Below are positions 47,052 to 58,700 of a stretch of DNA of 64,000 bases, in pieces. Each line of letters starts with the position of its first letter. Positions within the stretch are counted from its first letter, which is position 1. The position numbers and the translations under genes are program-made. Source of the DNA: Hymenobacter sp. YC55. GTDB lineage: Bacteria; Bacteroidota; Bacteroidia; Cytophagales; Hymenobacteraceae. The notes under the pieces are model-generated. The model did no database searches and was not told where the DNA came from. It was given only the letters and a program-made list of their open reading frames with translations. The DNA lies in the NCBI RefSeq assembly GCF_029433095.1, contig NZ_JARNTX010000013.1, positions 1-64,000 on the forward strand, written 5' to 3'.

Positions 47052-49646
47052 TCAAAAGAAGAAGCCAACCCGTACCAAGGGTAGTCGGTCCTCGCGGGAG
47101 AAGCCATAAATCCCCACTACAATAACTCGTGGGAAGGGCTGCAACCATACGCCGCCGCCGTAGCCGCGGTGCCAGGTGGTGGACTGCTCCCCTTCTTGCC
47201 ATACCCGGCCCGTGTCATGGAAGCCCAGCACCCCCACATCAGCCGAGAGCAGCACCGTATGGAAGCTGCCGAGGCGGGCGCGCACTTCCGCGTTATGATA
47301 CAAGGCGCTAGCGCCGGCAAAGCGGGTGCGGCGGAAGCCCCGCAGGTTACTAAGGCCGCCTAGGGTAGCGGCCTGAAAAAACTCGTACTGGCGAAAGTTT
47401 ATGGTGGCGCCCACTCGTGTTGCTAGGGTCAGGCGGGGCCAGGGCGTCCAGAAACCTGTGGCTTCCGAGTTCAGCCGCGAAACCGGCCGGGCGGCGGAGT
47501 TGAGGGCGCCAAGCCCGGTGTATTCGGTGCGCCAGTACACTCCTCTGGTTGGTTGCCAAGCAGCATCGCGGCTATCGTAGCGGTAGCCTAGCTGCACCCC
47601 GGCGTAATGCTGGGCATGGTACAGCGGGTTCGAATGGTCTGCCGGAAAGTTCTGATCGAGGTAGCGGCCGGGGGTGCGCTCGACTTCCACTGACTGGTAG
47701 AGGGGGCCGGCGTACACTTGCTGGTGCACCCCAATTTGCCGGCGCAGCTGCGCCTGCAACGCAACGTTGCGAAACCGCACTCGGTAGTAGCTGATGTTCT
47801 GGGACTGATCCAGGCGGGTATCGTTGCCAAGGCCAAAGAAGTTGCGCACATAGTTGGGCGCCTGCACCTCGGCCTTGAGTTGCACGTCCTGACGACCTAG
47901 CAAGTGGCGAAAGTCGCCTTGGTAGGAAAAGCTGAAGGCCCCGGTTTGCAGGGCCACGTTGCCTTGCAGACGGTGCACGCTGGCCCAGGGCTCTTTGCGA
48001 AAACCCGGTCGCCGCACTTCCAGGCCCAGCCCGAGAAAGACGCCGTCATCGAGGTTATAGCCCCAGGGCAACAAGGGTGCGAGGTAGGGGTAGCGGTACG
48101 CCCGCCGGTTGTACTGGTTGACAGTTGAATCGGTGGCCGTGCGGTTTTGGGCTTCCGGTCCGAGCTGCAAGTCGTTGTTGGTACGCGTATCATATACCAC
48201 TGTTTTGCGCGCCAGCCCCCGGACCCGGGAGCTGTCGGTGATGAGGTCGTGGCCCGGGCCCCCGATCAGGCGGACGCGGATGCCCCGGGACACCTGACCC
48301 CGCACTTGCACTACATCGTCGCCGGCTCCGGCATACAGGCGGATTTCCCGGGTCTCGGCTGCTAGAAACACCCGGTCGTAGAGGGGCGGGGCCATCGGCT
48401 CGGTTAACGCATAAGAGCGCACACGCGTGCGTTCTTCATCCAGCCGCTCGACCTGGAACCGCTCGGCTTGATCGGAACCCGTGACGTCCACTTCCTGGGC
48501 CAGGAAGGAGTAGTACTGCTCAGCGTAGCTGGGCAGGGCGTTGCGGTGCGTTTTGAGCTGGGTTGCAATCCTGGGGCCCGACCAGCGGTACACGGAATCC
48601 GGCAAGCAATGCAGGGCCTGGCTTATAACGGAATCGGAGAGGCGGGTTTGCAGCTCCCGGGCCAGGGCCACCCACTCGGTGCGGGATAGCTCATTGAGAA
48701 AGCTGCGGTCGAAGTAGCGCCCGTTGAACATAAAGGTATTGACGTTGCGCAAGGTCCCGTCGAAGCCCTGGATTTTGGGCAGAATCCACTCCCGGCTGGC
48801 GATATTGGGGATCAAGCCCTGGTTAACAAAGTACACCTGGTCCCGGTCGCGGGGCAAGGCCCGCAGCAGCAGCCCGCCTTGGGGCTGGGGGTAGGCCAGC
48901 CAACGCCACTGGTCGTCGTGCCGGTCCCAGTCTCCGAGTACCAGGTCGAGCAGACGCGCCCGCAGCAGTTCACGCTGATCGACCCGGTTGTGCGGATCTT
49001 GACGGAGCAGCGCTAGCACGTGCTCAGTGCTGTAGCTTTTCACCCGCGTGGAGTTACCAAACTGAGCGGGCGCCCCGGGGTCACGCTCCTCTAGCAAGGC
49101 CAAGGTGTTAGCAAAGTCGGTTCGAAACTCGCCTAGGCGGGCATCGTCGGGCACGTACACCAGCACCGGATTGGTGTGCCCTACGCCCGCCGCTTGAGCG
49201 AGCAGCGGCACGGTCAACGCCCCGTAGGGGTGCGAGGCCGATATCTGGTCCTGCACTACTTTGGCGGCCAAGGTATGGCGGAGCTCCTGCTGGATAACCT
49301 GCTCGGTGCTTTTCTCCACCGAGCGCAGCACGTATTCCTGCCCATTAGCAGCCCGCAACCGCAAGGATTTGGTTTGCTGCCCACCCCCCCGGCGGAGCGG
49401 GGTTAGGCCTCCCTGGGAGGTAGCCAAATTCAGCAGAGGCACATGCACGGGCTGTTGCCATTCCTGGCGATAGTTGGCACCCAGCAGCAGGGTCTTGAAG
49501 CCGGTGGCTTGATACTGCGAGCTGGCGCGCACCACCACACTATCCTGGACTTGAAAAGGCGCCGAAGGCGTCGGCCCTTGGCCCCACGCAACGCCGGGGC
49601 ACGCGAGGCCGCACCAGGCAAAAAAAACGAACAGACGAGTGGCCAT
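47052..49646 (-). CDS. outer membrane protein joining a kinase-like domain to an Omp85-type barrel
   Basis: 864-aa exported protein. The signal peptide is residues 1-25 (ends near 'VAWGQG'; ATG 49646 preferred to a TTG at 49673). Residues about 75-360 carry a pattern like Fam20/HipA/PI-kinase folds: a beta-3-like Lys in 'EYVLRSVEK' (K112), 'DLVLGDWDRHDDQW' (D241, H243), and 'PRDRDQVYF' (D267/D269) at the metal-binding position. Residues about 520-864 look like a BamA/TamA surface-antigen barrel with 'LSNLRGFRRTRFAG' and the C-terminal 'RVGFFF'. A bridging part has 'GAGDDVVQVRG' and 'GGPGHDLITD'. Function unknown; a periplasmic kinase tethered to a barrel is possible. It forms an operon with the adaptor before it. 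Confidence 0.8.
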   Translation of the reverse strand: MATRLFVFFAWCGLACPGVAWGQGPTPSAPFQVQDSVVVRASSQYQATGFKTLLLGANYRQEWQQPVHVPLLNLATSQGGLTPLRRGGGQQTKSLRLRAANGQEYVLRSVEKSTEQVIQQELRHTLAAKVVQDQISASHPYGALTVPLLAQAAGVGHTNPVLVYVPDDARLGEFRTDFANTLALLEERDPGAPAQFGNSTRVKSYSTEHVLALLRQDPHNRVDQRELLRARLLDLVLGDWDRHDDQWRWLAYPQPQGGLLLRALPRDRDQVYFVNQGLIPNIASREWILPKIQGFDGTLRNVNTFMFNGRYFDRSFLNELSRTEWVALARELQTRLSDSVISQALHCLPDSVYRWSGPRIATQLKTHRNALPSYAEQYYSFLAQEVDVTGSDQAERFQVERLDEERTRVRSYALTEPMAPPLYDRVFLAAETREIRLYAGAGDDVVQVRGQVSRGIRVRLIGGPGHDLITDSSRVRGLARKTVVYDTRTNNDLQLGPEAQNRTATDSTVNQYNRRAYRYPYLAPLLPWGYNLDDGVFLGLGLEVRRPGFRKEPWASVHRLQGNVALQTGAFSFSYQGDFRHLLGRQDVQLKAEVQAPNYVRNFFGLGNDTRLDQSQNISYYRVRFRNVALQAQLRRQIGVHQQVYAGPLYQSVEVERTPGRYLDQNFPADHSNPLYHAQHYAGVQLGYRYDSRDAAWQPTRGVYWRTEYTGLGALNSAARPVSRLNSEATGFWTPWPRLTLATRVGATINFRQYEFFQAATLGGLSNLRGFRRTRFAGASALYHNAEVRARLGSFHTVLLSADVGVLGFHDTGRVWQEGEQSTTWHRGYGGGVWLQPFPRVIVVGIYGFSREDRLPLVRVGFFF

Positions 49647-49677
49647 CAGCAGGCGAGACGTAGAGGTAGGCAATAGC

Positions 49678-50376
49678 TTAATTTTTAGAAATTAACGGCC
49701 GCGCTGGCAACTTCACAAAAGCATGCATTTGCGGGGTAATCAGCACACGGCCATGGTTAGGGATCCGCATCAGCAGGGTAGGATGGGAAGCAACGGAAGC
49801 AACTTGTACTACGCTGCCGCGAAAGCGCTGCGTGGGCAGCTCCGCCACGTAAACCGCCAGGGTATCGTGGTCATTCAGGGCCTGAGCTTGGGCAAGGGAC
49901 AGGGGCACTGCTAGGTGCACCGCCGACCAATCCTGCAGCATTGCCACGGATTGTCTCTGGTGCACCGGGCGGCCCACCTCTACGCGGCGGGCCGTGATGA
50001 TGCCGGCCGCCGGGCTAAAGATAAATCCGCGGGTTAACTGCCGCGCAGCTAACTGTGAGTCAGCGTCGAGCTTCACCAGGATTTGGCCAGCTTGCACCGC
50101 CTGCCCATCCTGAAAATACACTTGCTTGACATAACCTGAAAGAGGGGATACCACGGGCCAGCTTCGTTGCGGTTGGGGAGTGCCAGCGGCCACATACCCC
50201 GTAGGACAAGACCGCTGGGCAAGTTGATTTGCTGTCTCAGTCGGGGAAAGCGACGGGGAGCTGGGAGGCAGCTTGTGGCGCGCGATGCGCTTCTCCTGGC
50301 AGCAACAAGCCACTACGCCAAGCCAACCGAGTGCAACGAGCTTAAGAAAAAGCGAGTGAAGCAGGTGATATCGCAT
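49678..50376 (-). CDS. HlyD/MFP-like periplasmic adaptor lipoprotein
   Basis: 232-aa protein with a lipoprotein signal ('LGVVAC', Cys24) and the barrel-sandwich of membrane-fusion proteins: 'PLSGYVKQVYFQDGQAVQAG' then 'QILVKLDADS', and a returning half 'GIITARRVEVGRPVHQRQSV'. The long alpha-hairpin of efflux adaptors is replaced by a very short link, so it probably cannot reach a TolC partner. The tail has 'VLITPQMHAFVKLP'. The kinase-like/barrel gene starts 31 bp later, so they probably work together in the envelope. A Crp/Fnr-type site lies about 240 bp upstream. Confidence 0.8.
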   Translation of the reverse strand: MRYHLLHSLFLKLVALGWLGVVACCCQEKRIARHKLPPSSPSLSPTETANQLAQRSCPTGYVAAGTPQPQRSWPVVSPLSGYVKQVYFQDGQAVQAGQILVKLDADSQLAARQLTRGFIFSPAAGIITARRVEVGRPVHQRQSVAMLQDWSAVHLAVPLSLAQAQALNDHDTLAVYVAELPTQRFRGSVVQVASVASHPTLLMRIPNHGRVLITPQMHAFVKLPARPLISKN

Positions 50377-51912: not shown

Positions 51913-51922
51913 TCACGCTCGC
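51897..51922 (-). terminator. eboF: hairpin over the eboF stop codon
   Basis: On the minus strand GCGAGCGTGA, a 4-5 nt A-loop and TCACGCCCTCGC form a stem that includes the TGA stop of eboF. It lacks a U-tract, but its position suggests the end of the ebo transcript. Confidence 0.4.
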
Positions 51923-53286
51923 AGGTGCGCCAGAATAACATCAAATACATCGGGGGCTATCAACGTATCGCCGGGAAGCAACTGCTTGCTGCGGCTCATC
52001 AGCAGCGGTCCTTCGGCAGGCGTATCGGGCGGGCGGCCGTGCGATCCTTTTACCAACGTGGCATCGAGGGGAATGATATCCATCAGCATGCGAAAGCCTA
52101 GCTTTTTGCGCAGCACTTTGAGCCCCACTTTCGGCAGCAGGAACTTGATGTTGGGGTCGGTAAACATCTCGACCGGGTCGTAGCCGGGTTTACGATGAAT
52201 GTCCACGATGCGGGCAAAATCCGGCGCTTTGGCGTCGTCCAGCCAGTAATAATACGTAAACCAAGCCCCTTTTTCGGCTATAGCGACTAGTTCCCCGGCC
52301 CGGGAATGGTCTAGGTGATAAGTTGCTTTTTCTTCGGGACCAATAACCTTTTCCACGCCGGGCACCTTTTCTAGCAACTGCCGGACCGCGGCGAGCTTAG
52401 ATAAATCGTTGACGTAGATATGGGCTAACTGGTGGTCAGCCAGGGCAAACGCCTGGCAGGTGCCGGCGTCCAAAAGTTCCAAGCCTCGCTCTTCGCGAAT
52501 CGACAAGTACCCGTTTTCGCGCAGCACGCGGTTCAGGTGTACCGGCCGCGAAGCCGCGGCAATGCCGTACTCGGACAAAAATATTACCTGGGCGCCTCTG
52601 CCCTCAAAGTAAGTGGCTAGCTTCTCGCATTCCTGATCGATTTCGCGCAGGTCCCTCGCAACGCGGGCGTCGGCAGGGCCGTAGCGCTGGGCATTATAGT
52701 CGAGGTGGGGCAGATACACCAGCGTCAGGGTCGGGTCGTAGAGTTTGTCGGTCTCGATGGCGGCCTCGGCAATCCAGCGGCTGGAGTTGATGGTGGTGCG
52801 CGGCCCCCAGAACTCGAATAGCGGGAACGTACCTAGTTTGGCTTCCAATTGCGTACGTAGCTCCATTGGATACGTGTAGCAATCGGGCATTTTGCGCCCA
52901 TCGGACAAGTACTGCGGTCGGGGGGTAACCGTGTAGTCGGCTGAACTATACATGGCATACCACCAGCAGATATTGGCGCAGGTAAACGTCGGGTCTTCGG
53001 CCTTGGCTACTTCCCAAATCTTGGTGGCTTCTACTAGCTTGTTGGATTGGCGCCAGAGCTTGGGCTCACACTCGTCGCGGAAATACCACCCGTTGGCTAC
53101 AATGCCGTGCTCGGAAGGCCATTTGCCCGTGAGGTAGGTGGCTTGTACCGAGCAGGTTACCGCTGGCAGCACGTGTCCAACCGGTACTATCTTGGCAGCT
53201 TCGGACCACTTTTTTAGGAACGGAGTGTTTTCTCCTATGCTCGCGGGCGTTAAGCCCACAACATCAATCACGACTGTTTTACGCAT
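51913..53286 (-). CDS. eboF: EboF, alkaline-phosphatase-fold phosphodiesterase/pyrophosphatase
   Basis: 457-aa enzyme of the nucleotide pyrophosphatase/phosphodiesterase superfamily. It has the metal Asp in 'VVIDVVGLTP' (D8), the Thr nucleophile in 'PAVTCSVQATYLTG', 'WPSEHGIVANGWYF', 'YLPHLDYNAQRYGP', 'FLSEYGI' and 'DHQLAHIYV'. No signal peptide is seen, unlike many NPPs. It is the last gene of an operon in the order eboA-B-C-D-E-F known from cyanobacteria, eustigmatophyte plastids and Bacteroidota. ATG 53286 is chosen as it begins the first strand. The ebo pathway's product is not established; in cyanobacteria the cluster helps move the scytonemin monomer to the periplasm. Confidence 0.9.
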   Translation of the reverse strand: MRKTVVIDVVGLTPASIGENTPFLKKWSEAAKIVPVGHVLPAVTCSVQATYLTGKWPSEHGIVANGWYFRDECEPKLWRQSNKLVEATKIWEVAKAEDPTFTCANICWWYAMYSSADYTVTPRPQYLSDGRKMPDCYTYPMELRTQLEAKLGTFPLFEFWGPRTTINSSRWIAEAAIETDKLYDPTLTLVYLPHLDYNAQRYGPADARVARDLREIDQECEKLATYFEGRGAQVIFLSEYGIAAASRPVHLNRVLRENGYLSIREERGLELLDAGTCQAFALADHQLAHIYVNDLSKLAAVRQLLEKVPGVEKVIGPEEKATYHLDHSRAGELVAIAEKGAWFTYYYWLDDAKAPDFARIVDIHRKPGYDPVEMFTDPNIKFLLPKVGLKVLRKKLGFRMLMDIIPLDATLVKGSHGRPPDTPAEGPLLMSRSKQLLPGDTLIAPDVFDVILAHLRA

Positions 53287-53336
53287 ATAACCTTGAAAAT
53301 CTACTAGGGAATGCCCCAGCGCCACCGGCTTCGGGT

Positions 53337-54617
53337 CTAACCCCGGGACGGAAGAGCGGCCAAATTTGGGGGATTGGAAGCCGGGGGCTCGGGAGTGGAA
53401 AGAGCAGGAAAGTTTTGCTTTACCCACGTCAGCTCCCGGGCAATAGAAGTTACCAGGTCCTGCTTGATGGCAACCGGCAGCACGTCCCAGGTGTACGTTT
53501 CCACTTCCAAGTAACTAGTGAGGGGGTGAGCGGCGAGCAGCCGCAGCACTTTTTGGATTTCCAGCTGGGTGGATTGCAGCAAGTGGTAACGCTCTAAAAA
53601 CACCGGCACGTGAAAGTGGGAGCGCCACTCTCGGGCCGTGCTGGTTAGCAAGTGGGGCAGGGCGGCCGGCAAGTCGGGGTACTGGGTGATGCTCTCATCC
53701 TGGTTGCGGATCAGCACCTGGTGCAAGTAGGTGGACTCGGTGAAGGCCTCGAACTCACTTAGCACCACCTGCCGCTCTGGCAGAGCCGCGGGCAAATCAA
53801 CTTTAAGAGCCGCGCTGATTTGCACCCGGCCCACCTTGATACCCCGGGCAGCCAGCTCCGCAAAAACGGCCGCCGGCTCCTCGTAAGCCAAGGCGAAGTG
53901 ACACACGTCGTAGCACAGCTGCACGCAGTCGAGCACGGCTTGGGTGGCTTCTTGCGAGCTCAGCCCCAAGCGGGATTGCAGACGAGAGGAAACCTGGGGC
54001 AGCAGGTAGAGTTCGTAGAAGTTGATGAACTCCTGGGAGTTTTCCAGCACGCCATCTGGCTCCGGCTCGATATCGAGGTGGATAAGTTGCCCAGTTTGCT
54101 GCCGCAGGCGCACTAGGTCCTCTACCAGTTCCGCCAGATGCTGCGTGCTGTCCTGCAATACAGTTTCGGTTTGCGCAGCGTCTTCAGCGTGCCAAAGTTT
54201 GTAGGAAAGCGGAGACGTGGAAATACCGCCATCCAGCCCCGGAGGGAGCAAAGCCGCTAGCAGCCGGGCTAGGCGCCTAGTGTAGGCCAAGCGCGCGGGA
54301 GTGGTCCAGTCGGGGCGGTGCACGTCGTCTTTCACCTTTTCCCCGTGGAAGCTGCCGAAGGGAAAACCGTTGATAATGGGCACGTACAGGTCGTGCTTCG
54401 CTAACCAAGCCTTGAACTCGGTTAAATTCTCGCCTTGCTCTAGCTCCCGGCTGGCCACATCGGACAAGCGCAAACCCACGGCAAAAGGCGCAGTCGGCGA
54501 TACCCGGGCCCTGACGGGCAGCAGGTACGTTTTCAAGCTCTCGAAAACCGCCGCCCAGGTTTCGCCCGGGTGGATGTTGGTGCAGTAAGTGAGGTGGTAG
54601 CCCGGCCTAATATTCAT
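53337..54617 (-). CDS. eboE: EboE, TIM-barrel metabolite traffic protein
   Basis: 426-aa protein with a xylose-isomerase-like TIM barrel: 'GYHLTYCTNIHPGETW' at the N-terminus, 'IINGFPFGSFHGEKVK', 'GGISTSPLSYK', 'HLDIEPEPDGVLEN' and 'YDVCHFALAYE'. The paired acidic residues and His suit a metal-binding site. It is always found with eboD and eboF. It starts 30 bp after eboD and ends 50 bp before eboF. The C-terminus is Pro-rich and variable. The reaction is unknown. Confidence 0.9.
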   Translation of the reverse strand: MNIRPGYHLTYCTNIHPGETWAAVFESLKTYLLPVRARVSPTAPFAVGLRLSDVASRELEQGENLTEFKAWLAKHDLYVPIINGFPFGSFHGEKVKDDVHRPDWTTPARLAYTRRLARLLAALLPPGLDGGISTSPLSYKLWHAEDAAQTETVLQDSTQHLAELVEDLVRLRQQTGQLIHLDIEPEPDGVLENSQEFINFYELYLLPQVSSRLQSRLGLSSQEATQAVLDCVQLCYDVCHFALAYEEPAAVFAELAARGIKVGRVQISAALKVDLPAALPERQVVLSEFEAFTESTYLHQVLIRNQDESITQYPDLPAALPHLLTSTAREWRSHFHVPVFLERYHLLQSTQLEIQKVLRLLAAHPLTSYLEVETYTWDVLPVAIKQDLVTSIARELTWVKQNFPALSTPEPPASNPPNLAALPSRG

Positions 54618-54647
54618 GGCGTGAGGGTGGCAATAAGCGGAAAAGAG

Positions 54648-55841
54648 TTATTTAAAGCTGGCCAGTTCCACTAAACTAGGGTACTGCTGCAGCTCTTGCA
54701 CGGCGGCCACTACAAGCTGGTCGTTTATCTCGTGCACTTCCACGCCGCGGCCGATTTGCGTCAGCAACGTAATAGTTAACCTGCCGCCAAGGTGCTCACG
54801 GAACTCCTGCAAGCCGTGCAGCAAACTATTTGGGTGGGTGGCGTCGGTGAGGTGGAAGGCCAGTTCGGGAACGTACAAAGCAAAGCCCAGCGTGCGAATC
54901 ACCTCGATAATCCGCACCAGTTCCGTCGCGCTTAGCCATCCCAGTAGGTGCGAGTACACCGAGTCCAGCGCAATACCGATGGCGACGGCCTCGCCGTGCC
55001 GGATGCGGTAGTTGCTAAGCTGTTCCAGCTTGTGAGCCGACCAGTGGCCAAAGTCCAGGGGCCGAGAAGAGCCCTGCTCGAACGGGTCGCCGCCGGCAAT
55101 GTGCTGCAGGTGCATCTCGGCGCAGCGATGAATCAAGTACTGCATGGCCGGCATGTCGCGGGCGGCCAGCTTGGTGGCGTTTTCTTCGAGGAAGTGAAAA
55201 AACGTGGCATCTTTGATGAGCGCCACTTTTAGGGCTTCGGAAATGCCACTGCGCCAGTCGCGGTCCTCTAGGGTAGGCAGAAAATTGAAATCGTTGAAGA
55301 CGGCGTAGGGCGGAGCGAAATTGCCGAGGAAATTTTTCTTGCCGAAAGCGTTGACGCTGTTTTTCACGCCGATGCCGGAGTCATTCTGCGACAACACCGT
55401 GGTGGGAATGCGCAAGTGCCGAATCCCGCGGTGGGCCACCGACGCCACGTAGCCCGCCATATCCAGCACGGCCCCGCCGCCGAGCGCGACAAAGTAGGAA
55501 TGTCGGTCGAGGTGGTGAGTGTTGACGGCCGTGAGCAACTGCTGAAGCAGCGCGGGGTCGTTCTTGCACTGCTCGCCGCCGGCTATCACCATGATGGGCC
55601 CACTGAGCTGCAGCACGGCAGCATGCACTTGGGCGTAGTGAGTAATGGCCGCCACCAGCTGCGGGTGCTGATCGGCTACACCGCTGTCAACAACGAAAAA
55701 GATCTTGCGTGCCCCCTCGCCCCCGTCCTGCGCTAGCACGTTGCGCAGCAAGTGGTTGGCTGGGTCGAACAGGTTTTCTGTAAAATGAACGGGGTAGGAA
55801 AACGCAACCTGAAACTGCTGCTGCAACGAAGAAATAGGCAT
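54648..55841 (-). CDS. eboD: EboD, 3-dehydroquinate-synthase-like enzyme
   Basis: 397-aa member of the sugar phosphate cyclase superfamily. It shows NAD-binding 'FVVDSGVADQHPQLV', 'YFVALGGGAVLDMAGYVAS', 'RIPTTVLSQNDSGIGVKNSV' and metal ligands in 'DFGHWSAHKLEQL' and 'IRHGEAVAIGIALD'. These keep the catalytic pattern, so the protein is probably active, but its place among ebo genes points to a specialised cyclase and not to the shikimate pathway. ATG 55841 is chosen; the open frame extends upstream into the eboC gene region. The gap to eboC is 104 bp. Confidence 0.92.
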   Translation of the reverse strand: MPISSLQQQFQVAFSYPVHFTENLFDPANHLLRNVLAQDGGEGARKIFFVVDSGVADQHPQLVAAITHYAQVHAAVLQLSGPIMVIAGGEQCKNDPALLQQLLTAVNTHHLDRHSYFVALGGGAVLDMAGYVASVAHRGIRHLRIPTTVLSQNDSGIGVKNSVNAFGKKNFLGNFAPPYAVFNDFNFLPTLEDRDWRSGISEALKVALIKDATFFHFLEENATKLAARDMPAMQYLIHRCAEMHLQHIAGGDPFEQGSSRPLDFGHWSAHKLEQLSNYRIRHGEAVAIGIALDSVYSHLLGWLSATELVRIIEVIRTLGFALYVPELAFHLTDATHPNSLLHGLQEFREHLGGRLTITLLTQIGRGVEVHEINDQLVVAAVQELQQYPSLVELASFK

Positions 55842-55945
55842 AAAACTATATTTATCACGCGCAAGAGGGACCGGATGGGGCTGTTTCAATTCCCGAAAAA
55901 CCATGCAATCAACAGGGTAGGGGACAGCCCTTAAAATTGCTGCTG

Positions 55946-56857
55946 TCAAGTGACGGCGAACAGGTTGGCCAGCAGCCGAGACACTGGAAACAAGGCCAGC
56001 ACTAGCAGCCCATACCACCAACCGGCAAAGCCCGCGGCCACAGTAGCATCGAGCAAAATCAGGGCCATGACGCCCGCTTTGACGGCCAGCCGAATATCAA
56101 GCGGCTTAAGCGAGGAAATAGCTTTCAGCAGAGGCGGAAAAATCAGGTAGCTGAACAAAGCCAGAAACGGCACTGAATACCACCCGTGCATTTGGGGCAG
56201 GCCCAGCAGCACCAGAATGCCGCCAATCACCAGCCCATATAAGCCCAGCGACCCGAGCAAAATTCTTTTATCGCCGCCGTGCACTTCCCCCCGGCTGATA
56301 CTGGTGATGGCCGCAATGTAAACCACCGGTAGCAACGCCAGATACCAGTACGCGCCAACCGCGGCGGGTACGGCGCTTAAGCCCAGCAGCAAATTGCCAC
56401 CCCGGCAGGCGCCCATATTCAACGGGCCCAGCACCGGGTGGTGCTTGGCTACGGCATTGTAGAGCAAGGCCAGCCCCGCCACTACGCCCGCTACCAGGCC
56501 GCTGGTGTTGTTCACTTGAAATGCGGCGGCTACGCCGCCCAACAGCAGCGTGGCCCCGAGTAGGGTCGCGCTCAGACGGCTGGCAGCCCCGCTCGGAATC
56601 GGGCGCTCGGGCCGCTCCAGCCGGTCGAGGTCGGCGTCGAAGACGTCGTTGAACACCACGCCGCCGCCGTATAAGCCGATAGTTGCCGCCACCAGCCAGT
56701 ACAGGGCTTGCAGTTGCGGGTGCGTGGCTACTACTGGACGGCTCTGCAACAGCAATTGTACCGAGCCCGAGGCGGCAAAGCCAAGCAGAATATCGGCAAT
56801 GGCCGTGATGATGTTGGCGGGCCGCATCAGCACTAAGTGGGCAAAAAACCGATTCAT
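55946..56857 (-). CDS. eboC: EboC, UbiA-family prenyltransferase
   Basis: 303-aa integral membrane prenyltransferase with eight to nine hydrophobic helices. The first Asp-rich motif is 'NDVFDADLDRLERPERPIPS' (NDxxDxxxD) and the second is 'EVHGGDKRILLGS'. These bind prenyl diphosphate through Mg2+. It would attach a prenyl group to an acceptor made or modified by the other Ebo proteins, giving a lipid-linked intermediate at the membrane. ATG 56857 is preferred to a GTG two codons earlier. EboB ends 12 bp upstream, so the genes are cotranscribed. Confidence 0.93.
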   Translation of the reverse strand: MNRFFAHLVLMRPANIITAIADILLGFAASGSVQLLLQSRPVVATHPQLQALYWLVAATIGLYGGGVVFNDVFDADLDRLERPERPIPSGAASRLSATLLGATLLLGGVAAAFQVNNTSGLVAGVVAGLALLYNAVAKHHPVLGPLNMGACRGGNLLLGLSAVPAAVGAYWYLALLPVVYIAAITSISRGEVHGGDKRILLGSLGLYGLVIGGILVLLGLPQMHGWYSVPFLALFSYLIFPPLLKAISSLKPLDIRLAVKAGVMALILLDATVAAGFAGWWYGLLVLALFPVSRLLANLFAVT

Positions 56858-56869
56858 ACGCACTAGAAA

Positions 56870-57775
56870 CTAACGAATAATGCTGCTGTCGGTCTCCACT
56901 TTCGGGGTTTGCCCGCCGCGCAGGATGGAGTTGCCGGAAAATTTCTGGCTTTGGTCGATGGCGCTGGCCGTCAGCCAGTCGCTTTCCGGCATTTGGCCGC
57001 TTTGCCCGAAGGCTACCAGCGCATTCTGATACGCCACGAGCTGCACCGCCTCCGCCGAAATGCCGCGCTCGAGCATGAGCTGAGCCGTTTTGGGCACGGC
57101 CAGCGGGTCGCTGATGCCCCAATCGGCGGCGCTGTTGATAATAATGCGCTCGGGGCCGTACTGCTTGACGATTTCCGTCATGCGCTCGTTGCCCATCTTA
57201 GTGTGCGGGTAAATAGTGAAAGCGGCCCAAAAACCCCGGTCGAGCACATCCTGCACGGTTTCCTCGTTGTTGTGGTCGACGATAACCATGCTTGGCTCCA
57301 GGCCGTGTTCCAGGGCCACTTCCATGCTGCGCAGGGTGCCCTTTTTCTTATCGCGGTGGGGGGTATGAATCTGCACCGGCAAATTCGCTTCCTTGGCTAA
57401 CTCCAGCTGCAGGCGATAGTACTTGTCTTCGGCGGCAGTTTGGTCGTCGTAGCCGATTTCGCCGACCCCGACCACGCCCTCTTTGTAAACAAACAACGGC
57501 AGCAGCTCCATCACTTCTTCGGCTAGCGCTTCGTTGTTGGCTTCTTTGGAATTCAAGCCAATAGTGCAGTAGTGCTTGATGCCGAACTGGCTGGCGCGAA
57601 AACGCTCGAAGCCAATCAAATGACTGTAGTAATCCTGAAAAGTACCGACTTGCGTCCGGGGCTGGCCCATCCAGAACGCCGGTTCGATAACGGCCACTAC
57701 GCCCGCGTTGCGCATGGCTTCGTAGTCATCGGTGGTGCGCGAAGTCATGTGTACATGCGGATCAATAAAGAGCAT
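56870..57775 (-). CDS. eboB: EboB, TatD-family metal-dependent hydrolase
   Basis: 301-aa amidohydrolase-fold enzyme. Metal ligands fit TatD: 'FIDPHVHMTSRT' (HxH), Glu in 'GVGEIGYDD', His in 'VQIHTPHRDK', His in 'MVIVDHNNEET' and Asp in 'INSAADWG'. ATG 57775 begins right before the HxH strand; the longer frame overlaps the intergenic gap and is not supported. It lies 52 bp after eboA. TatD itself is a nuclease; the ebo version has an unknown substrate. Confidence 0.93.
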   Translation of the reverse strand: MLFIDPHVHMTSRTTDDYEAMRNAGVVAVIEPAFWMGQPRTQVGTFQDYYSHLIGFERFRASQFGIKHYCTIGLNSKEANNEALAEEVMELLPLFVYKEGVVGVGEIGYDDQTAAEDKYYRLQLELAKEANLPVQIHTPHRDKKKGTLRSMEVALEHGLEPSMVIVDHNNEETVQDVLDRGFWAAFTIYPHTKMGNERMTEIVKQYGPERIIINSAADWGISDPLAVPKTAQLMLERGISAEAVQLVAYQNALVAFGQSGQMPESDWLTASAIDQSQKFSGNSILRGGQTPKVETDSSIIR

Positions 57776-57827
57776 AGGAAGAGGTATTAGGAGGTGCGAA
57801 AAGAAGGGGTAAGCCGGGATAAGCTGT

Positions 57828-58700
57828 TTAGCTAGCGTAGGCGCTTTCGCCGATGCTTTGCCAGGAAACGACTTCCGGCTCATTGATTTGCCGGGCGACC
57901 GGGTGCTGATTAAGCAGCTCGGTTGCCCAAGAAGTGTTGCTCTCCGTCAAAGCCAGTGCGGCCGCTTGGGCTTCCAGCAAGTTGTCGCTGCGCAGCAGCC
58001 GCTGCATGTCGGCTCGATGATCGTCGGTTAGATACGGCCCGACTAGTCGCCACACTTCGGGCGTGAGGGTGCGTCCAGCCGCCCAGCGTTCGTGGGCGTA
58101 GTCGAAAAGTATGCGGGCGAGGGGCGCGTTACGGCGCTCCTCCAAGCCGTAAATCTGGTGCAAGGGCCGCGCGTTGAACACAGCTTTCAAAACCAGCTGG
58201 TTCCAAGCTTCCTCGGACAAGTAATCGTGCGGATACGGGTTGCGCAGCGCAATGGCATCAAACACGGCGGTCATGGTTGTGCGCACTCCTTCCGCTGCTC
58301 GCTTGACGTGAATTTGCGGGTGCGGTAACAGCGGCAGGGCGGCGTAGAGCGCTACCAATTCGCCTAGATCGGCCGTGCTAAAGAGTCGGTCTAGCCGAGC
58401 CGTCAAGTCGTGGGGGCTGGCAGGCAAAGCTTGCAGCAGCAGCGCCGTGCGGGCCAGCTGGTCGGCCGTCCAATTTTGCGGGTTGAATCCGGTTCGTAAG
58501 CGGTTGGCCTCGGCTACTTGCTTGGTTGTTACCCGCAGGGGGAGCTTGCCGACAAAGCGGGGAGCACCAGTGAAAGCGAGGTAAAAAACTTGGTCAGAGG
58601 GTTCGGCAGTTAGTTGCTTCCGAATCCAGGCCTGGCCGCCTTCCGACAGCTGCGGCAGTAGCAACTCGAGTAGGAATGGTTGATAAGCTTCTACCGGCAT
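57828..58700 (-). CDS. eboA: EboA-domain protein
   Basis: 290-aa soluble, mostly helical protein. It resembles EboA in pattern: 'AWIRKQLTAEPSDQVFYLAF', 'AFTGAPRFVGK', 'WTADQLARTALLL', 'LYAALPLLPHPQ' and 'MTAVFDAIALRNPYPHDYLS'. No catalytic motif is known for the family. As the first gene of the operon it has the promoter region upstream; a weak -7-like TTCTTTTG lies at 58720-58727 on the minus strand. The call depends on gene order as much as on sequence. Confidence 0.88.
   Translation of the reverse strand: MPVEAYQPFLLELLLPQLSEGGQAWIRKQLTAEPSDQVFYLAFTGAPRFVGKLPLRVTTKQVAEANRLRTGFNPQNWTADQLARTALLLQALPASPHDLTARLDRLFSTADLGELVALYAALPLLPHPQIHVKRAAEGVRTTMTAVFDAIALRNPYPHDYLSEEAWNQLVLKAVFNARPLHQIYGLEERRNAPLARILFDYAHERWAAGRTLTPEVWRLVGPYLTDDHRADMQRLLRSDNLLEAQAAALALTESNTSWATELLNQHPVARQINEPEVVSWQSIGESAYAS

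Follow-up and report, generated by a model that had tools for sequence, protein, structure and literature searches.

A predicted atypical kinase-fold domain joined to an Omp85 barrel in Hymenobacter sp. YC55 and other Bacteroidota

Can a barrel protein of the bacterial outer membrane carry a kinase-like domain, and what could such a domain do there? This question is raised by a gene of Hymenobacter sp. YC55 located in the 64,000-nucleotide stretch of DNA analyzed here (contig NZ_JARNTX010000013.1, positions 1–64,000; hereafter, the window). The initial annotation, made from the sequence alone, placed at 47052–49646 an exported 864-aa protein with motifs reminiscent of Fam20/HipA/PI-kinase-like folds ahead of a BamA/TamA-like barrel, and considered this pairing unusual. 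The 864-aa frame was confirmed and lies on the minus strand, which had not been specified: it starts with ATG at 49646, its stop codon ends at 47052, and the open frame is extendable to a TTG at 49673, giving 873 aa. The quoted motifs were all present: YVLRSVEK (residues 105–112), GDWDRHDDQW (238–247), PRDRDQVYF (from residue 265), LRGF, and a C-terminal Phe. The encoded protein comprises a putative signal peptide, a kinase-fold domain, an all-beta domain, and an Omp85 barrel; all coordinates given below for its parts refer to the minus strand. The hydrophobic N-terminus ending in ...GVAWGQ (residues ~1–22; 49581–49646) was recognized by eye as the putative signal peptide, so the protein is probably exported.

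The N-terminal part of the protein (residues ~36–383; 48498–49541) is predicted, with good support, to be an atypical kinase-fold domain of the PI4KII/CotH/HipA/CtkA type. Residues 25–400 were modelled by AlphaFold2 from alignment A2, which consisted of the window domain and 68 relatives from public genomes (69 of the 81 available rows); the mean predicted local distance difference test score (pLDDT) was 90.3 and the predicted template modelling score (pTM) was 0.90. The models were judged by these scores and by secondary structure, and the Foldseek and VIA-align results given here are the best matches listed. Among the Foldseek matches listed for the PDB, Helicobacter CtkA was the first (E 1.5e-4); five matches, three CtkA and two HipT chains, had E ≤ 0.001, and HipA, RIO2, Golgi casein kinase, and PI4KII were also found, among others. 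In VIA-align, the highest Z belonged to type II phosphatidylinositol 4-kinases (PI4KII; Z 15.4, 253 residues, root-mean-square deviation (rmsd) 4.3), followed by CotH (Z 14.0, 256 residues, rmsd 4.3), CtkA (Z 13.3, 236 residues, rmsd 4.6), HipA (Z 11.1, 216 residues, rmsd 4.2), and Golgi casein kinase (Z 10.8, 246 residues, rmsd 5.5). CotH and CtkA were tied, and the PI4KII rows ranged from 15.4 to 13.9; therefore, we do not name a single closest family. The guess of a kinase-like fold was thus borne out, and a fold unrelated to kinases was rejected on the Foldseek and VIA-align matches together with the CotH profile controls.

A profile of the 69 sequences, searched against the PDB, found five sequences at E ≤ 10, of which CtkA was the best (E 0.0092); in this alignment, GDWDRHDDQW stood opposite FDRHNGNW, matched on DRH, with the metal Asp off by one column. 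CtkA of Helicobacter pylori (PDB 3akj/3akk), the best match of both Foldseek and the PDB profile, shares the DRH loop with the window protein; however, it has Asn where the window family has Gln and, like HipA, carries no barrel. Type II phosphatidylinositol 4-kinases are eukaryotic lipid kinases with 10% identity to the window domain and, in spite of their highest Z, were absent from the five PDB chains found by the sequence profile. Fam20C and Golgi casein kinase, secretory-pathway kinases of the same fold class with a lower Z (10.8), were likewise absent from these five chains; the likeness observed is one of fold.

CotH proteins (PF08757; PDB 5jd9/5jda) resemble the window domain in fold, in a profile score above controls, and in the Asp motifs GxWD and IPxDxD. 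Hidden Markov model profiles were compared between the 25-row alignment A1 and 24 CotH proteins, with shuffled columns and 12 unrelated families as controls. The CotH score with A1 was 30.9, while shuffled alignments reached a mean of 15.1 and a maximum of 24.5 (0 of 150 as high) and unrelated families did not exceed 20.2. With A2, CotH scored 25.8 and its shuffled controls 24.0 at most (0 of 100 as high), and the HipA score with A1 (23.0) was barely above the shuffle maximum of 22.7 (0 of 100 as high); because of these small margins, both scores give much weaker support than that of CotH with A1. The alignment with CotH places D241 opposite the Asp of the CotH motif GxWD and D267 opposite that of PxD. 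According to passages of PMC7821199, the CotH mutant D228Q is inactive and CotH is distantly related to Fam20C; the D224/D247 spacing, counted in the 5jd9 alignment, suggests D241 as the counterpart of this D228.

Pfam did not support membership in the CotH or HipA families. Residues 25–400 matched no Pfam family convincingly at E ≤ 10. An ordinary CotH protein was rejected since no Pfam CotH match was found in the window protein (E ≤ 10) or in the 69 members (E ≤ 1), and the HipA model (PF07804) also matched neither. CotH differs further in having genes of its own within the Bacteroidota (46 of 118 genomes), and the genome of strain YC55 has a CotH gene elsewhere (G000:C14). PADLOC gave no match for the window protein.

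The conservation of the candidate catalytic residues was followed in homologues of residues 25–400, which were collected from 296 genomes of the phylum Bacteroidota by overall similarity, without motif selection. The resulting 141 aligned domains included the window domain, 5 paralogues, and 135 others; the tree and the column rankings were based on 138 of them, without the three partial rows L260, L267, and L272. This set replaced A2 in counting the DRH and QW positions, since the scan fetching the A2 loci had used a pattern built on the DRH/QW motif. The Lys, Asp, and His positions singled out in the initial annotation were indeed conserved: K112 in 136, D241 in 129, H243 in 126, D267 in 132, and D269 in 130 of the 141 relatives. 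E186 (134), R108 (131), and Q246 (130) were kept to a similar extent, as were G87 (130), G88 (132), and Q91 (126) of the glycine-rich stretch. In the ranking of 376 columns, which also places a few mostly-gap columns in its top 40, these 40 included R108, K112, E186, D239, D241, R242, H243, Q246, D267, R268, and D269. As the homologues were chosen by similarity, the quoted motifs are not due to chance. K112, D241, and D267 were jointly kept in 122 of 138 domains.

In the model, the glycine-rich GGGQQT (residues 87–92; 49371–49388) sits between strands 1 and 2 of the N-lobe hairpin. The R108-S-V-E-K112 segment (49311–49325) lies at and just past the next predicted strand, which covers residues 104–109, with R108 inside it and K112 just after; hence R108, not the K112 named by the initial annotation, probably takes the place of the ATP-binding lysine. 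E186 (49089–49091), a conserved Glu, follows K112 and precedes the catalytic loop. The catalytic-loop-like GDWDRHDDQWRW (residues 238–249; 48900–48935) contains D241 as the candidate catalytic Asp and was aligned by profile to NWDxY of CotH as well as to FDRHNGNW of CtkA; the metal-Asp-like PRDRDQ (residues 265–270; 48837–48854), with D267 and D269, aligned to PWDxN and PYDYD of CotH.

The C-terminal part of the protein (residues ~521–864; 47055–48086) was assigned to the Omp85 barrel by Pfam and by the predicted model. PF01103 matched residues 588–831 with 36.7 bits, above the curated cut-off of 24; matches to ShlB and HTH_23 (Pfam) and to an Omp85 family (NCBIfam) were below threshold. Residues 385–864 were modelled with the 44-row alignment A4 (pLDDT 91.2, pTM 0.83), and the predicted barrel had 15 long strands and one short first strand, as in the 16-strand BamA/TamA type. 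Residues 521–862 matched BamA with Z 25.6 (302 residues, rmsd 3.3) and TamA with Z 25.0. R and G of the LRGF loop motif (residues 768–771; 47334–47345) were invariant across A4. The BamA/TamA-like barrel with LRGF and a C-terminal aromatic residue, as initially described, was thus confirmed. The barrel is alike in BamA and TamA; their POTRA domains, however, were not found in the window protein: no POTRA family was among the Pfam matches at E ≤ 10, and residues 25–400 model as the kinase fold. Between the kinase fold and the barrel lies an all-beta domain of mainly predicted strands (residues ~386–520; 48087–48491). Two RTX-like turns, GAGDD and GGPGHD, were noticed in it by eye, and a sub-threshold HemolysinCabind match was obtained in L037, one of 7 relatives scanned.

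Relatives of the domain were found in 110 of the 296 Bacteroidota genomes and in all 81 searched genomes of the genus Hymenobacter, that of strain YC55 included; the best-matching public records were also Hymenobacter. By open-frame length, 82 of the 141 relatives are long forms of 1190 aa or more; 43 are mid forms and 16 are solo forms, one solo form being a contig-end fragment. The domain is thus not confined to the window protein but common across the Bacteroidota. It belongs most often to the long forms, and those examined have a phosphatase-type domain ahead of it.

Three long forms were typed by Pfam, and the calcineurin-like phosphatase family PF00149 scored 30.4 in L046, above its cut-off of 21.5, and 21.4 in L084 and 18.2 in L113, both below it. 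An N-terminal PF00149 domain was not found by Pfam in the window protein. Of 64 long proteins examined, 43 contained the phosphatase motif GNHD. The motif was found in none of the 11 long Hymenobacter-type relatives with 53–62% identity to the window copy (L038–L040, L282–L289), which keep the DRH loop, and in 11 of twelve more distant long forms of the genus (L294–L305). The loss of GNHD with retention of DRH in the near relatives suggests that near the window copy the phosphatase decays while the kinase fold stays. In a quickly built tree of the 138 domains, with several long branches and no bootstrap, the window copy and its 64% paralogue belonged to a starred clade of 14, comprising 6 long, 7 mid, and 1 solo forms, and the long label required at least six changes on the starred branches. 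All three of K112, D241, and D267 were present in 79/82 long forms, as against 31/41 mid and 12/15 solo forms; the lower retention in intact mid than in long forms, in a comparison uncorrected for relatedness among the sequences, suggests that kinase and phosphatase activities may be partly coupled. In a Pontibacter genome (L055:7908–10490), two adjacent frames of 420 and 435 aa encode the kinase-fold part and the Omp85 barrel, respectively, through gene fission or a frameshift.

Degenerate copies were encountered as well. In Hymenobacter, one group of long forms (L004/L017/L174) has the loop ADFGKHEDNW and one group of solo forms (L006/L013/L173) has GDWSRRED, with SRR in place of DRH; elsewhere, D267 is replaced by Arg in four copies. 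The genome of strain YC55 itself has two solo copies with no Omp85 match and a lipoprotein-like N-terminus, at G000:C1:2026856–2030161 (L005, L006, L273). These two barrel-less copies are divergently transcribed; DRH is intact in one of them, and the other has SRR. Adjacent solo copies were likewise found in two more genomes of the genus (two in G166, three in G072), an arrangement resembling a kinase/pseudokinase pair.

Part of this architecture has been described. Heinz and Lithgow (2014; PMC4104836) list a 'Metallo' group of Omp85 proteins with PF00149, called there a metalloprotease domain, whereas in Pfam PF00149 is the calcineurin-like phosphoesterase. Like the long-form relatives, as far as the group is described in section 10 of that paper, these proteins have PF00149 at the N-terminus and an Omp85 barrel without POTRA, and the long forms, as judged from their sequences, fit this published architecture. 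The section mentions no kinase fold, and the word 'kinase' is absent from the main text. Barrels of the 'noNterm' group are said there to resemble Metallo barrels, and the functions of the Metallo proteins and of those with no N-terminal domain were, in the same account, left open in 2014. The window-type proteins plausibly fall in the noNterm group because the kinase fold has no Pfam profile. In open-licence PMC full text, we failed to find a description of a kinase-fold domain in an Omp85 protein.

The fold and the outer-membrane tether are well supported, and catalysis is likely; for the whole statement, that the window protein is an outer-membrane-anchored, catalytic phosphotransferase, we consider the case evenly balanced. 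With the barrel as its anchor in the outer membrane, the N-terminal domain would lie on the periplasmic side. It may act as a metal-dependent phosphotransferase (or nucleotidyltransferase), with D241 as the catalytic base and D267/D269 as metal ligands, and the modified target would be an envelope molecule: a lipid, a glycan, or a protein. In long forms with an intact phosphatase motif, the fused phosphatase could remove the transferred group; the window lineage seems to keep the kinase step alone, since its nearest long relatives lost the phosphatase motif. A broader proposal, which we put forward as doubtful, is that of a Bacteroidota-wide outer-membrane family with a kinase-fold 'writer' and a calcineurin-like phosphatase 'eraser' in one polypeptide on an Omp85 barrel. 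Such proteins would set the phosphorylation of envelope components with an extracytoplasmic donor, and in window-like lineages the eraser would have decayed or been lost while the writer was kept. An atypical kinase fold between the phosphatase and the barrel gives the Omp85 groups listed in 2014 a testable chemistry. If active, these proteins would be outer-membrane-tethered kinases in a phylum with major representatives in gut, soil, and water, and one would have to ask what serves as the phosphate donor beyond the cytoplasm.

Several observations weigh against catalysis by this fold. Free ATP is not expected in the periplasm. An Arg, R108, apparently sits where the usual ATP lysine does. 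The catalytic-loop Asn (Asp+5) is replaced by Gln in 130/141 relatives, Asn being found in 6/141; Gln is unusual for a kinase here and may change metal binding. Together, the Gln and R108 make an altered chemistry or a binding role possible. In 16/138 members K112, D241, or D267 is missing, which means that some copies are probably inactive and that the fold can persist without catalysis. As for the fold assignment, hhalign's own probability for the CotH pair was low (10.7 with A1, 3.0 with A2), and the similarity was judged on the shuffle and unrelated-family controls instead. None of the 69 members matched the Pfam CotH, HipA, PI3/PI4-kinase, or protein-kinase-domain families (E ≤ 1); a stray Pkinase_C match (E 0.34) occurred in one of them.

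The same substitutions would suit a non-catalytic module binding phospholigands or nucleotides, a sensor or a substrate-presenting domain in the service of the barrel or the phosphatase. This explanation, possible though somewhat unlikely in our opinion, also agrees with the degenerate copies described above and with the 10/41 mid forms lacking K112, D241, or D267, and it would make the relatives a large family of exported pseudokinases. However, the phylum-wide retention of these three residues in 122/138 domains seemingly goes beyond the needs of a binding pocket, and the two degenerate groups of Hymenobacter are extra paralogues beside intact copies. The close likeness of the barrel to BamA and TamA (Z 25.6 and 25.0) and its invariant LRGF Arg and Gly would equally be expected if the N-terminal domain replaced POTRA, the protein being an outer-membrane assembly or secretion factor and the kinase fold an inherited scaffold. 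Assembly or translocation is, in the relevant part of PMC4104836, the most conservative hypothesis for Omp85 subfamilies of unknown function. We regard such a role as improbable here, given that the domain also exists without a barrel (the short-frame class has 16/141 rows, including one contig-end fragment) and that the candidate active-site residues are among the most conserved columns.

As a further alternative, the barrel may display the kinase-fold domain at the surface of the cell, within reach of extracellular nucleotides. The patatin–Omp85 fusion PlpD is described in a passage of PMC4104836 as delivering its enzyme domain to the surface, and lipoprotein-like forms of the kinase-fold domain exist; but the barrel fold by itself is no proof that the N-terminal domain is exported, and we think this very improbable. 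Our preference stays with a phosphotransferase held on the periplasmic side.

The gene directly upstream (49678–50376, minus strand) encodes a 232-aa HlyD/RND-adaptor-like protein (PF16576, PF13437) and is possibly co-transcribed. An adaptor homologue was found upstream of 7 of 8 window-type copies (the window copy, L002, L037, L278–L281); none was found within 1.5 kb upstream of L277, the closest copy (80% identity). Weak adaptor-like matches also occurred near three long forms: immediately before L282, immediately after L287, and 1.7 kb upstream of L038. The adaptor therefore does not mark the loss of the phosphatase, and its role as a replacement for the lost domain was dropped as an explanation.

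Neighbouring genes were also counted in 79 loci (L102 left out), with each cluster typed by Pfam from one member. The recurrent neighbours (e.g., L046:4749–6867) were HD-PycTM (41), SdiA-regulated/phytase-like (31), a protein with a GAF hit (17), a probable adenylate-cyclase-like protein (15), and polyphosphate kinase (15), showing a phosphate and nucleotide theme. In other genera, the SdiA-regulated/phytase-like gene was often directly upstream on the same strand (26/79 loci), within 44 nt or overlapping in 24 of these 26. None of these recurrent neighbours was present among the typed genes flanking the window copy, where not every flanking frame was typed; for this reason, and because the counts are inflated by related genomes, no substrate was drawn from the neighbourhood. 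Further along the window, an ebo-type cluster was located at 51913–58700 (minus strand), encoding an EboA domain (NF035938), a TatD-like protein, EboC (NF035940), a 3-dehydroquinate-synthase-like protein, EboE (NF035939), and a type I phosphodiesterase/nucleotide pyrophosphatase.

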